From Chloroflexota bacterium (GTDB lineage Bacteria > Chloroflexota > Dehalococcoidia > Lucifugimonadales > G022566795), in contig JADFIF010000008.1 in NCBI GenBank assembly GCA_022566795.1, forward strand, positions 1 through 41,191: a stretch of 41,191 bases of DNA, written 5' to 3'. This document shows, piece after piece, positions 5,142 through 9,244 of this stretch. The stretch's first letter is position 1, and every line of letters begins with the position of its first letter. Both the position numbers and the translations under genes were made by a program. The notes under the pieces are model-generated. The model saw only the letters and a program-made list of their open reading frames with translations, did no database searches and was not told the origin of the DNA.

Positions 5142-5375
5142 CTAGCTCTTTTCAGCGCGGCCTCTCGAGATTGCGCTGCTCAGTTCCGCGGCGATCTCGG
5201 ATTCCCGCCGTGCTGCCAGGCGGATGATGGCCCGGGCCATGAGCTGAAGGCTCTCTTCCAGGCGCGACAGGATGCGCTCCAGGCGAAGCATGAACCACAC
5301 GAGTACGATACCCGCTATACCCGCGTTCACAAACGGCGACAGGTCAATCTGCAACGTCCTACCCTCGCATACCAA
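5142..5375 (-). CDS. Small membrane protein at the end of the tail cassette
   Basis: Up to 77 aa with a single membrane segment (roughly NAGIAGIVLVWFML) followed by a charged, probably coiled helix RLERILSRLEESLQ. It starts with TTG at 5375. A second TTG at 5354, with GAGGG upstream, would give about 70 aa (MQIDLSPFVN). It follows the large tail protein by 23 nt on the same strand, so it is the last gene of the cassette. The size and layout recall the small holin-like or XhlA-like membrane proteins encoded after phage tail genes. With only one membrane segment and no lysin gene nearby, a holin role is only a guess. Confidence 0.6.
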   Translation of the reverse strand: MVCEGRTLQIDLSPFVNAGIAGIVLVWFMLRLERILSRLEESLQLMARAIIRLAARRESEIAAELSSAISRGRAEKS

Positions 5376-5398: not shown

Positions 5399-7357
5399 CT
5401 ACACCCCCTCCAGCAACAGCTCGCGGGCGACCCTGGTCCAGCCCTCTCCGACCGTCACCCGGTGCCCCTCTACGAAGAAATCGCCGTCGATGCCCATGTC
5501 GCTGTAGGTGACGGTGACTCGGTCCGAGAAGGTCCGCTGGAGGATGAGCATCAGGTTCGCCCTGGAGCCGTTGGACACGACGACGTTGAGCACGGTCTTC
5601 GGGTCCTTCTTGCGCGCAAGTCTGGAATCGGCGGTGGCCTGCGCCACGGCCACCTCGCGGGTCCACCGGGCCTCGATGCTTTTGACGCGCTGGCCGTAGG
5701 TGCTCTTGCTGGTGGCATCCTCGGCAAGCACCAGCAGCGGGTCGTCGAACAGGAAGGCGTTGAGAGTGCGGAGCTTCAGCAGCGTCAGGTACCCGGCCGT
5801 AGCACCGAACGTTACCCTGATGAGAGTCCCCTTGCCGTTGAAGTCGGCGGTGTTAGGGTGGGTTACGGTCAGCTCGCTGGATATGTCCGTGCCCGAGCCA
5901 TCCTGAGCGGTGTTGGCGTCGTAGTCGGTGTTCTCCAGAGGCGTAAGCTGGCCGGCCACGATGTCGTAGTCCTCGGACTCGGCCAGGAAGTCCTTGGTCT
6001 CGTCTGAGGCAAAGGAGGGCTTCTCCTTCAGGGTCCAGGCGGTCTGGAGGCCTTGGGTCGTCGCGTCCCTGATCCTCACGAACACGACGTTCTCGATGTT
6101 CCCCGCTCCGTCGTCCCACACCAGCTCGGAGAAGAAGGCGTTGGCGCCGTCATTCACCTCCTTTATAGTGGCCTGAGACGCCGTATGGGGCCCTCCACTC
6201 CGGTGGGTCCGGTTCTCCAGGCGCCAGTAGCCGTGTCCGTCGACGTAGGCGAACCCATCCTCCTCGTCTTGGAGACGATGGATCTCATCGGTGGCCTGGA
6301 CACCCCAGATGGGCGGGCTGAACAGGCTGGGCACCAGAGTCGTTCCCGAGTCGAGCTGCCGCGAGCCGGAGTCCACGTCGGCGTAGTCGAGGATATCTCC
6401 CAGGATCTCGTCGGACGTTTGCGGCAGCGGGGAGGCCGAGTAGGTGTACAGCGTCACGCTGGTCAGCCGCTCGAGCTCGTCCAGCGCCCGCAGGTAGCAG
6501 TACTGCGCCGACCTGATTGGCCTGGGATGTATCGAGTCGACCGTGCCGAAGAACATCGACACCCACCCACCGAAGGCGTTCCACGCGTGGTCGGCCTGAT
6601 CGTCGCAGAACAGGCCGTGCCTCGTCGCGGTGGTGTTGAAGGATGAGGTCGTGTCCACGATCTCGGTGCTGTCGACGAAGACGCGGATGGACGTGCCGTG
6701 CAGGACGACTTGCAAGAACCTCTTCGAGGCGCTGGGCCAGGTGTAAGCCGCGCTGGCGACCAGGCTGTCGGCCCCGCCATCGACCTTCCGCACCTCGATG
6801 GCCGAGCCCGTGACCCTCGCGTACAGGTAGTCGCTGGTGGTGGAGAACCGAAAGGCGAGACCTCCACGATCGGCAGAGTCGGTCCCGAGGGTAAAGTCGC
6901 AGCCAAGAGATACGTTGGCGTCGAGGAAGTCGACGGTTGCCACGCAATCGCCGTTACCCTGGGTGCTGTCGGTTTCGACGCCCCCGCCGGCGACGATCTG
7001 AAAGCCGCCGAGGTGCTGGGTCCACGCGAACCCCGAGTCGAGGTCGAGAGTATGAGCTGAAAGCGGCGTTCCGCCGGCGTCGGAGAAGCCGTCGTAGGGG
7101 TACGCCGCACGCACCCACGTCTTGCGGCCAGGCTTCAGATTGCCGCTGAGCGGCGAGGACGTGTTGGGCGGGCTGTACTTGTGGTCGTCATTCCTGAGCT
7201 GAAGCTCGAGGCGTGCCGCCTCCAGGTGGCCGCTGGACAGGTCGCGAAAGTGCTCCAGGGTGAGCCCGAGCACATCCGCCGTCACGTCCTCGTTGGCGTC
7301 GGAGAAGTCGCCATCGTCGTTCCAGTCGACCTGAACCAACCACTTAGCCTGGGCCAC
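5399..7357 (-). CDS. Phage-type tail hub/tip protein with a LamG-like insert
   Basis: 652 aa, GTG start preceded by AGGAGG with 7-nt spacing. The N-terminal 80 residues (VDWNDDGDFSD, then LELQLRNDDHKYSPPN and NLKPGRKTWVRA) match what I recall of siphovirus tail-tip or hub proteins. Residues about 100-275 form an all-beta stretch resembling a concanavalin/LamG lectin fold (LAFRFSTTSDYLYARV, FLQVVLHGTSIRVFVDSTEI). The remainder returns to a baseplate-like part ending in FFVEGHRVTVGEGWTRVARELLLEG. It is the largest gene of the cassette and lies between the tape-measure-like fragment and the small membrane protein. A role in surface binding at the tail tip is inferred. Confidence 0.72.
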   Translation of the reverse strand: MAQAKWLVQVDWNDDGDFSDANEDVTADVLGLTLEHFRDLSSGHLEAARLELQLRNDDHKYSPPNTSSPLSGNLKPGRKTWVRAAYPYDGFSDAGGTPLSAHTLDLDSGFAWTQHLGGFQIVAGGGVETDSTQGNGDCVATVDFLDANVSLGCDFTLGTDSADRGGLAFRFSTTSDYLYARVTGSAIEVRKVDGGADSLVASAAYTWPSASKRFLQVVLHGTSIRVFVDSTEIVDTTSSFNTTATRHGLFCDDQADHAWNAFGGWVSMFFGTVDSIHPRPIRSAQYCYLRALDELERLTSVTLYTYSASPLPQTSDEILGDILDYADVDSGSRQLDSGTTLVPSLFSPPIWGVQATDEIHRLQDEEDGFAYVDGHGYWRLENRTHRSGGPHTASQATIKEVNDGANAFFSELVWDDGAGNIENVVFVRIRDATTQGLQTAWTLKEKPSFASDETKDFLAESEDYDIVAGQLTPLENTDYDANTAQDGSGTDISSELTVTHPNTADFNGKGTLIRVTFGATAGYLTLLKLRTLNAFLFDDPLLVLAEDATSKSTYGQRVKSIEARWTREVAVAQATADSRLARKKDPKTVLNVVVSNGSRANLMLILQRTFSDRVTVTYSDMGIDGDFFVEGHRVTVGEGWTRVARELLLEGV

Positions 7358-7383: not shown

Positions 7384-7815
7384 CTAGCCACCGACGCCTA
7401 GCCCCCTGCGGCGGTCCTCCGCGAGCAGACGTTTAATCTCCTTCGCCAGCGCTCTGATGGCTCGCTCGTCGTCGAGGAAGATCGTACCGCCCACCAGGTT
7501 GACGTTTACCGTCGAATCACCGGCCAAGCTTGAGGTAGCAGGTCGTGCCGTGGGGATCATCGCCGCGCTCATGGAGGGCCGCCCGCGCACTCGGGCAGAG
7601 GGTGCCTCCGGTGTCGACCCGGCGGTGGGGGCCAACCTCGGGAGGGAACGCAGGGCCGCGTCAGTCTCGGCACGGAGCCGGGTGAGCCGCGCCGACTGCT
7701 CTGGCGCCTCGGCCGCTGGCGGCGCGGATGGCGGAAGCCTTCGCAGGGTTCGCACGACGTTGCCGGCCTCTGCCCGAAGCCGGTTCAACCTCGCAGATGT
7801 TGATTCGCTGCCCAT
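7384..7815 (-). CDS. Tape-measure-like C-terminal protein (short)
   Basis: 143 aa. The N-terminal half holds two similar helical segments (SARLNRLRAEAGNVVRTLRRLPP and SARLTRLRAETDAALRSLPRLAP), separated and followed by Pro/Ala-rich linker. The last 45 residues (STVNVNLVGGTIFLDDERAIRALAKEI) have the form often seen at the extreme C-terminus of phage tape-measure proteins: a beta strand, then a helix that recurs in family members. A normal tape measure is several hundred to thousands of residues; here the long helical body is missing. The ATG follows the upstream gene's TGA by one base, so translation is coupled. It may be a deletion remnant or a genuinely tiny ruler. Confidence 0.55.
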   Translation of the reverse strand: MGSESTSARLNRLRAEAGNVVRTLRRLPPSAPPAAEAPEQSARLTRLRAETDAALRSLPRLAPTAGSTPEAPSARVRGRPSMSAAMIPTARPATSSLAGDSTVNVNLVGGTIFLDDERAIRALAKEIKRLLAEDRRRGLGVGG

Positions 7816-7816
7816 A

Positions 7817-8383
7817 TCAGCCGTGCTCCTCTTCGTTCTCGAAGTTCAACGCTCCGCCGCCTTCGACCGCCCGCGCAACAGCGAGGTAGGTGCCCATGCG
7901 CCGCACGATGTCGGCGGGCGTCTCCTGTAGCCTCTGCCAGCTCCAGCCGGTCGCGGCCATCAGGTGGGCCTCGACGAATGCTGCGGGCACTTGGCCCGAC
8001 ATCAGCGCGGCGAAGAGCTCCTCTGCCTCGGCCCGAAGGCTCCGCGTGGCCAGGTATGGTGCGACGCAACGCTTGAACGCCTCCAGCACGGCGATCAGAT
8101 CTTCAGGGTCTCGCGAGGCGATGGCCTCGACACTGGCGGGCCCTGAAAAGCTCCAGCCCGCAGTGAGGGATACCAGCGCTCGGTCGACCAGTTCGTCGCC
8201 GGCGTCGGACCACTCGCTCAGATGGGCCCATGTAGGCCGGACGAAGATATCCCACCAACCGCCCGAGGGCAGCTCGACTCGATATACCTCGCCCACAGGG
8301 CCGGACGGGTCTGACCGCCCGGCAGACCGCTTCGCCCTGGCTGCCCCGCCGCCAAGCGCCTGTCGGCTCCAGCGAAACCGCAT
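7817..8383 (-). CDS. Putative tail assembly chaperone
   Basis: The tracked ORF begins at 8440, but the ATG at 8383 (MRFRWSRQAL) lies just after the tail-tube stop at 8389 and is preferred; this gives 188 aa. The centre reads like a phage tail assembly protein (YRVELPSGGWWDIFVRPTWAHLSEW, then a helical part). The C-terminal part contains GWSWQRLQETPADIVRRM, a pattern typical of the second chaperone segment next to tape-measure genes. In many phages these two parts are joined by a programmed frameshift; here they lie in one frame. Position between tail tube and tape-measure-like gene supports the call. Confidence 0.6.
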   Translation of the reverse strand: MRFRWSRQALGGGAARAKRSAGRSDPSGPVGEVYRVELPSGGWWDIFVRPTWAHLSEWSDAGDELVDRALVSLTAGWSFSGPASVEAIASRDPEDLIAVLEAFKRCVAPYLATRSLRAEAEELFAALMSGQVPAAFVEAHLMAATGWSWQRLQETPADIVRRMGTYLAVARAVEGGGALNFENEEEHG

Positions 8384-8388
8384 CGCCG

Positions 8389-8814
8389 TTAGTAGGCGCC
8401 TCGCGTGACAGTGCCCTCGACCTGCAGCGTTGCGAGCCACTCGATGAGGTTTCCGACGCGGCTCCTGAGCTCATACAGGCTTACCCAACACGTGCCGGAG
8501 TACTTCACGTCGCCGACGGCAGTCCCCTCCGGTCCGTATTCGAAACTCACGGCGGTCGTGTTGGTCCGCAATGGGCCGAGCACGGCGTCGGGACCTGCTG
8601 TAACGGTGTCGTCGAACAGGCCTCGCAGGTTGACCGTCACATCCTCCAGGCCGGGGATGAACTTCGCGCCTGAGTCTCCCAAGGCTGTGACCTCGTTCAG
8701 CAACCTCGGACCCGGCAGCCCGCGGACCTCCGTCAAGTAGGCCGACAGGTCGCGTGGCAGGTCGGCGGTGTCGTTGATTGAGAACTTGGAGACCTTGGAG
8801 TCGAAAAAGGTCAT
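8389..8814 (-). CDS. Phage-type major tail (tube) protein
   Basis: The ATG at 8814 (MTFFDSKVSKFSIND) has GAGG 6 nt upstream and is preferred over the tracked 8922 start, which would run through the terminator-like hairpin. This gives 141 aa. The order of elements (RDLSAYLTEVRGLPGPR, LGDSGAKFIPGLEDVTVNLRG, SFEYGPEGTAVGDVKYSGTCWVSLYEL) fits the small beta-rich tail tube proteins of siphophages. It is the first gene of a five-gene minus-strand cassette. No capsid, portal, terminase, integrase or endolysin gene is found on either side. Confidence 0.7.
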   Translation of the reverse strand: MTFFDSKVSKFSINDTADLPRDLSAYLTEVRGLPGPRLLNEVTALGDSGAKFIPGLEDVTVNLRGLFDDTVTAGPDAVLGPLRTNTTAVSFEYGPEGTAVGDVKYSGTCWVSLYELRSRVGNLIEWLATLQVEGTVTRGAY

Positions 8815-8853: not shown

Positions 8854-8881
8854 AAAAAAGAGACGGCCCAGAGGGTCCGTC
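8854..8881 (-). terminator. Intrinsic-terminator-like hairpin in the leader of the tail cassette (possible attenuator)
   Basis: On the minus strand GACGGACCC-TCT-GGGCCGTC forms an 8-bp stem with one bulged A and a 3-nt loop. It is followed by TC and a run of six T (8859-8854). It lies between the predicted promoter (8893-8922) and the tail-tube ATG at 8814, so it would stop most transcripts within about 35 nt of their start unless it is overridden. Confidence 0.7.
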
Positions 8882-8892
8882 CCTTCACATTT

Positions 8893-8922
8893 ATGATAGA
8901 ACAAATGTGCGCTATATGTCAA
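8893..8922 (-). promoter_or_regulatory. Predicted promoter of the tail cassette
   Basis: Minus-strand TTGACA (8922-8917), 18-nt spacer, TATCAT (8898-8893): 11 of 12 consensus positions. Transcription would start near 8886, immediately before the terminator-like hairpin. Confidence 0.7.
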
Positions 8923-8961
8923 GGCCCATTTGGAAAACGAGCAGGGCCTTTAATTGTCTCT

Positions 8962-9020
8962 CTTGAGCGAAGCGAAGAGTCTCAGCGCCAACCGGGAAGA
9001 GATGCTTCGCTTCGCTCAAG
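8962..9020. repeat. Perfect 16-bp inverted repeat
   Basis: CTTGAGCGAAGCGAAG (8962-8977) and its exact reverse complement CTTCGCTTCGCTCAAG (9005-9020) enclose a 27-nt loop. The arms have an internal GCGAA repeat. It lies 40 nt upstream of the tail cassette promoter. It could be a dispersed repeat, a protein-binding site or an RNA hairpin; there is no T-run to make it a terminator. Confidence 0.85.
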
Positions 9021-9244
9021 CATGACACATGGTTCCCCGCGACGCACTTTAAGGGCCCTGGGAGAACGGCGGCTGGCCGCCCGGACCCACCCCGGACAGG
9101 GACAATCCTTCGATCTAGCACGCTGCTACAGTCATCGAACGTGCGGAGATGGGAAGCGTCGGACCGCGACGTGACCTTCGGTCCGGTCATACCGAATCCG
9201 CCGCAAGCGCACCTCCGTAGTAGCTAGCGAGGTCCCCTCCAATG

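Follow-up and report, generated by a model that had tools for sequence, protein, structure and literature searches.

The gene transfer agent (GTA) of Caulobacter crescentus is known for antitermination by GafY/GafZ (PMC11150451) and for a LexA-like repressor, RogA (PMC9632790). In Pseudomonas aeruginosa, AlpA provides antitermination in a DNA-damage-linked lysis operon, alpBCDE, and both Q and AlpA have been reported to need a -10-like pause sequence (PMC7969949, PMC9371919). The control of GTAs has so far been worked out in alphaproteobacteria. Our search of the literature revealed no report of a GTA for SAR202/Dehalococcoidia and nothing on promoter-proximal terminators associated with phage tails. 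Here we describe a locus from a Chloroflexota bacterium of the Dehalococcoidia, located in a stretch of 41,191 nucleotides that was analysed as a whole (the window), in which a first-pass annotation had noted a promoter followed directly by a terminator ahead of a tail cassette. The results indicated that the observation is real and conserved and that its interpretation was right in outline, while the setting is larger, namely that of a dispersed GTA-like element, probably SOS-controlled, with terminators in most of its operon leaders. It looks like an undescribed element of this kind with two tiers of control, SOS derepression and read-through of a leader terminator.

Leader and tail cassette in the window

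The features of the leader and of the cassette behind it are as follows.

8917 to 8922, minus strand: -35 element TTGACA
8899 to 8910, minus strand: LexA-type operator GCACATTTGTTC (GNAC-N4-GTTC), within the spacer and directly next to the -10 element
8893 to 8898, minus strand: -10 element TATCAT, after an 18-nt spacer
about 8886, minus strand: predicted transcription start, placed 7 nt past the -10 element
about 8858 to 8885, minus strand: terminator hairpin predicted by folding, with the conserved 5' arm GGGAC(G/A)GACCC, kept in 22 leaders
8854 to 8859, minus strand: T6 tract completing the intrinsic terminator
8389 to 8814, minus strand: first gene, major tail (tube) protein (phrog_10528, E=8e-31)
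7817 to 8440, minus strand: second gene, in the position of a tail assembly chaperone, conserved in 8 genomes
7384 to 7815, minus strand: 143-aa gene in the tape-measure position, role putative
5399 to 7357, minus strand: 652-aa gene, putative distal tail protein
5142 to 5375, minus strand: 77-aa protein with one TM segment, probably holin-like, judging by position and by similar small proteins

The promoter, the hairpin, the T6 tract and the cassette all lie on the minus strand; the first-pass annotation had given no strand. The promoter that it called near-consensus, TTGACA-18-TATCAT, has 11 of the 12 bases of the sigma-70 consensus. The hairpin and six T that it placed right after the start are also present, with the GGGAC stem beginning at about +4, that is, 3 nt past the predicted start. 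The hairpin has the sequence AAGGGACGG-a-CCC-TCT-GGG-CCGTCTCTT and forms 12-13 pairs with a single bulged A, which is the presumed cause of its having been missed by a terminator scan. The hairpin and T6 are followed by 40 nt to the ATG of the tail-tube gene at 8814, with GAGG upstream of this ATG, as claimed for a first gene with its own ribosome-binding site beyond the terminator. The minimum free energy of the leader was -19 kcal/mol (z=-2.4), and 2 of 200 shuffled sequences folded equally well. This was the sole promoter with at least 9 of 12 consensus positions and a terminator no more than 25 nt away in the whole window, while 60 dinucleotide-shuffled windows contained 2 such layouts in total, or about 0.03 expected per window. 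With its GC-rich stem and U-tract, conserved with the pairing kept, the element has the makeup of an intrinsic terminator.

The claim of a tail cassette behind the leader was likewise borne out, as the first gene encodes a phage major tail protein. Its predicted fold resembles the tail tubes of siphophages and monocins and that of the Rhodobacter GTA particle (6tba), the match being modest (mean pLDDT 76; best E 1.7e-3; TM about 0.5-0.6). The true start of the second gene probably lies inside the ORF. The 652-aa gene, which had no match in Pfam or PHROG, is conserved in 8 genomes and is also found in viral contigs. In two of these contigs (L220, L224), about 2.3 kb separates the chaperone-position gene from the 652-aa gene, a space that in the cassette is taken up by the 143-aa gene alone; this comparison of sequences suggests that the tape measure of the cassette has been shortened relative to the viral contigs. 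Counterparts of the 77-aa protein were found in the same place at two other loci (L039:10748-10960, L040:8204-8419), and in G022 the gene of a similar small holin-like protein is preceded by a separate copy of the promoter-terminator module. Host genes flank the cassette, with an ornithine cyclodeaminase gene on one side and a divergent gene for a PDZ protein on the other.

Two further observations concern the surroundings. Immediately upstream of the promoter (window 8942-9060) is a MITE-like repeat of 119 bp, which has the ends CAGGGCCCTTAAA / TTAAAGGCCCTG and matches about 17 more places in the same genome; similar ends, AAAGGCCCT, were noted ahead of the terminase promoters in G033 (L117) and G085 (L132). 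A 12/12 sigma-70 consensus promoter is located at window 2580 (minus strand), near the genes for ribosomal proteins S12/S7.

The leader and its promoter type in relatives and at sister operons

Related loci were found in metagenome-assembled genomes of Dehalococcoidia/SAR202, and the same promoter and hairpin lie upstream of the orthologous tail genes in G055, G089, G090, G010, G039, G084 and G087. The first-pass annotation had proposed that relatives be compared for a conserved hairpin and covariation. In the 22 leaders compared, all from the same order (Dehalococcoidia/SAR202), the hairpin was kept, stem positions 3 and 5 were invariant, and position 6 showed compensatory pair changes (GC in 12 leaders, AT in 7, TG in 2 and GT in 1), as read from a pair table based on single-sequence folds of each leader, which is not an independent covariation test. 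A U-tract (six or more T among the 10 nt past the stem) was present in 20/22 leaders. Two terminase leaders were without a convincing one, with a weak tract in G033 and a stem but no U-tract in G022. The tail leader of G033 has a different hairpin with no T-run, and that of G030 has no hairpin. The existence of leaders without a hairpin or a U-tract means that the terminator is dispensable in some lineages. A GGGTCC stretch that follows the window terminator and is complementary in sequence to the 5' arm was also considered and found not to be conserved in relatives.

A covariance model of the hairpin was searched over 16 genomes, and the same module was found before terminase (L083, L092, L094), portal (L100) and holin-like (L089) genes located at other chromosomal places. 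The genome of the window itself has a head cluster on another contig (C2, L145), comprising terminase, protease, HK97-type capsid, head-tail adaptor and tail terminator, with room for a portal gene between terminase and protease, as in G090. The terminase begins 167 bp from the contig end, and its leader is not visible. The protease-capsid promoter is of the same type as that of the window, TTGACA..GAACGCATGTAC..TATTAT (L145:3055), and is followed by a strong terminator of different sequence (AAGCCCCCGA..TCGGGGGCTTTT). This arrangement is common to 7 relatives, 6 of them with a similar U-tailed hairpin and one (G033) with a stem without a T-run; in two capsid leaders (L172, L176) the promoter has no terminator behind it. 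The promoter-terminator module also occurs in a viral contig (L218), between the tail-terminator and tail-tube genes. As far as sequences can tell, two unrelated types of predicted leader terminator thus stand behind one promoter type at several operons. One genome, G010, contains six terminase copies (G010:C1; L125 and five further sites), and six SOS-type promoter sites of the same type adjoin them.

The spacer of the window promoter contains the motif GNACNNNNGTTC, which also precedes lexA, recA and dinB. The box was found before lexA, dinB and a DNA-repair radical SAM gene in relatives, with the latter two genes identified by reading the sequence, and upstream of recA in the genome of the window. 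Among phage-operon promoters, 35 of which were tabulated, the pattern GNAC-N4-GT(T/G/A)C lies in the spacer/-10 region. In Gram-positive bacteria, the LexA motif is GAAC-N4-GTTC (PMC3323433), and a box of this type overlapping the promoter is common to lexA, recA and dinB, as in a regulon. Because the spacer motif is shared with these three genes, the leader promoter is probably controlled by LexA/SOS, with LexA predicted to bind the box. The spacer element is accounted for by LexA, leaving no separate antiterminator site. LexA was present in 11/11 relatives scanned and was not found in the 85%-complete assembly to which the window belongs, where a weak LexA Pfam match proved to be HrcA by sequence. 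The promoter-terminator layout of the first-pass annotation is thus conserved, before a tail cassette and before other phage-type operons; what the annotation had missed is the probable layer of SOS repression, given by the LexA-type box in the spacer.

Some additional observations were made on SOS-type sites. The lexA gene and the tail cassette are on one contig in G090 (L049, G090:C208), and the tail cassette of G010 is divergent from recA (L039). SOS-type promoters are massively repeated in some relatives, with 114 sites in G010 (including L178, L189, L207 and L039:3484), 201 in G022 (L192, L201) and 43 in G039 (L179, L199); the reversed pattern gave 0 sites. The copies in G010 stand at the head of a conserved repeat longer than 300 bp in which no gene is evident. 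A gene for a small zinc-ribbon protein is also located behind an SOS-type box (L193, L205).

A dispersed element probably inherited with its host

In the genome of the window, no replication or integration genes were found beside the terminase, protease, capsid, adaptor and tail-terminator genes. The terminase-portal, capsid and tail genes of G087 and G084 are at separate chromosomal places, whereas the head and tail genes of related viral contigs are contiguous. The capsid gene was single-copy in 12 of the 14 genomes searched, present as two fragments in G086 and absent in G031. Capsid and terminase are co-inherited with lexA: pairwise distances track those of the host LexA for the capsid (r=0.93, Mantel p 0.0005) and for the terminase (r=0.84, Mantel p 0.0035), and the tail tube follows LexA weakly (r=0.27, p=0.075). 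Host neighbour genes are shared in some relatives. These distances point to long-term vertical inheritance with the host for capsid and terminase, with a weak signal for the tail tube. We also considered a tailocin, which has tails without capsid or packaging genes, and rejected it, as the same genome has head and packaging genes and the capsid operon has the same promoter type. The window cassette looks like one piece of a dispersed GTA-like system that would produce particles, a setting that the first-pass annotation had missed.

Proposed passage of the terminator and comparison with known systems

For the control region of this dispersed GTA-like element, we propose an SOS-controlled promoter with a leader terminator that would be passed by means of a trans-acting antiterminator, a reading to which we give about an even chance. 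In the first tier, LexA on the spacer box would keep the promoter off until DNA damage occurs. In the second, polymerase would run into the intrinsic terminator (+1 to about +35) and would by default release an RNA of about 35-40 nt, so that only read-through complexes would get to the tail genes. Polymerase would then become terminator-resistant at all operons together through a trans-acting factor that joins it at the promoter or in the early elongation complex. That the sister operons mostly have the same promoter type and leader terminators of two unrelated sequences suggests such a common factor, and turning on the particle probably takes a second step past the terminator. By analogy with GafZ, AlpA and Q, a trans-acting antiterminator is our best guess. 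Counting against it, no candidate turned up among the SOS-linked genes encountered. A NusG paralog (LoaP/RfaH type) was rejected, since most carriers have one NusG and paralogs also occur in non-carriers; so was the SOS-linked zinc-ribbon protein, whose family is present in 215/247 genomes of the order and is not specific. In addition, none of the 8 tail leaders has a -10-like sigma-pause sequence in the first transcribed bases.

The main rival is that the terminator passively filters leak, cutting basal expression of the costly structural genes by a fixed factor, with incomplete termination sufficing after SOS and no antiterminator involved. The lack of an antiterminator candidate is in keeping with this, partial read-through from so strong a promoter (11/12) could be enough, and a damping element that can be tuned would fit with the U-tract or hairpin having been lost in some lineages. 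However, a weaker promoter would achieve the same, and the long-conserved 5' arm, together with two unrelated terminator types at several operons, suggests regulated read-through; we consider a passive filter possible, if rather unlikely. The terminator might instead be an insulator that blocks read-through from host genes into the phage operons, with transcripts from the operons' own promoters escaping it owing to its closeness to the start. The operons are indeed embedded in host DNA, and in viral contig L218 the module comes directly after the tail-terminator gene. Nevertheless, the window, G010 (with recA) and several further loci have a divergent gene on the upstream side, which leaves no incoming transcription, and the promoter lies upstream of the terminator, not after it; insulation is therefore improbable.

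We judge it just as improbable that the hairpin is mainly a 5' mRNA element, acting in stability or as the site of an RNA-binding protein, rather than a terminator. The U-tract has been kept in 20/22 leaders although the genomes are mostly GC-rich, and the unrelated hairpin of the capsid operons is also mostly U-tailed; these facts outweigh the stronger sequence conservation of the 5' arm (GGGACRGACCC) relative to the 3' arm, the terminase stem without a U-tract in G022 and the different tail stem without a T-run in G033. Classical attenuation, in which a ribosome or a ligand or leader RNA turns the terminator off, shares only the general promoter-terminator-gene layout with this locus. The onset of the stem at +2 to +10 leaves no room for a leader ORF or an aptamer, the leader folds at best 16-25 kcal/mol less stably once the terminator is excluded, and an Rfam scan of the window gave no match. 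With the stem at this position and no competing fold, a leader peptide or a riboswitch is unlikely, and we hold classical attenuation in general to be highly improbable. Thus, of the two options named in the first-pass annotation, an attenuator or a system needing an antiterminator, the former does not fit a stem at the first nucleotides, and the latter remains the best guess, although unproven.

Taking SOS control and antitermination together, we put forward tentatively, as a possibility rather than an expectation, that this is a new GTA lineage in Dehalococcoidia, divided among several chromosomal operons, which DNA damage would set off jointly and in which a new, sigma-pause-independent antiterminator acting on the early complex would control passage of the leader terminators. 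A dispersed system of phage origin in these marine bacteria, driven by SOS and gated by terminators, would add an independent example of gene transfer by a domesticated virus in connection with DNA damage, and the repeated leaders offer a ready assay for finding a new antiterminator.

As in the Rhodobacter capsulatus GTA (6tba), phage-type head and tail genes are chromosomal, and the tail tube of that particle is among the fold matches of the tail tube here; in contrast, the lineage is that of Dehalococcoidia, no GTA-specific sequence match was found, the promoters are directly of SOS type, and the gene in the tape-measure position is much shortened. Lambdoid late control by Q similarly has a terminator soon after the promoter of the late structural genes, but here the terminator is far closer (+1 to +35), there is no pause element, and the operons are dispersed. 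The AlpA system shares a DNA-damage-linked promoter, an element in the -35/-10 spacer and an intrinsic terminator shortly downstream (26-54 nt past the start in that system), and there one regulator serves more than one operon, as proposed here; unlike in that system, a -10-like pause sequence is missing from 8/8 leaders and the spacer box is LexA-type. The Caulobacter GTA is also a domesticated phage cluster that combines a LexA-like repressor with terminator read-through and has a regulatory element between -10 and -35. Its terminator comes after the first gene of one main cluster, whereas here there are several scattered operons, most of them with the terminator ahead of the first gene; and RogA represses activators, whereas the LexA-type box described here is in the structural promoters themselves.
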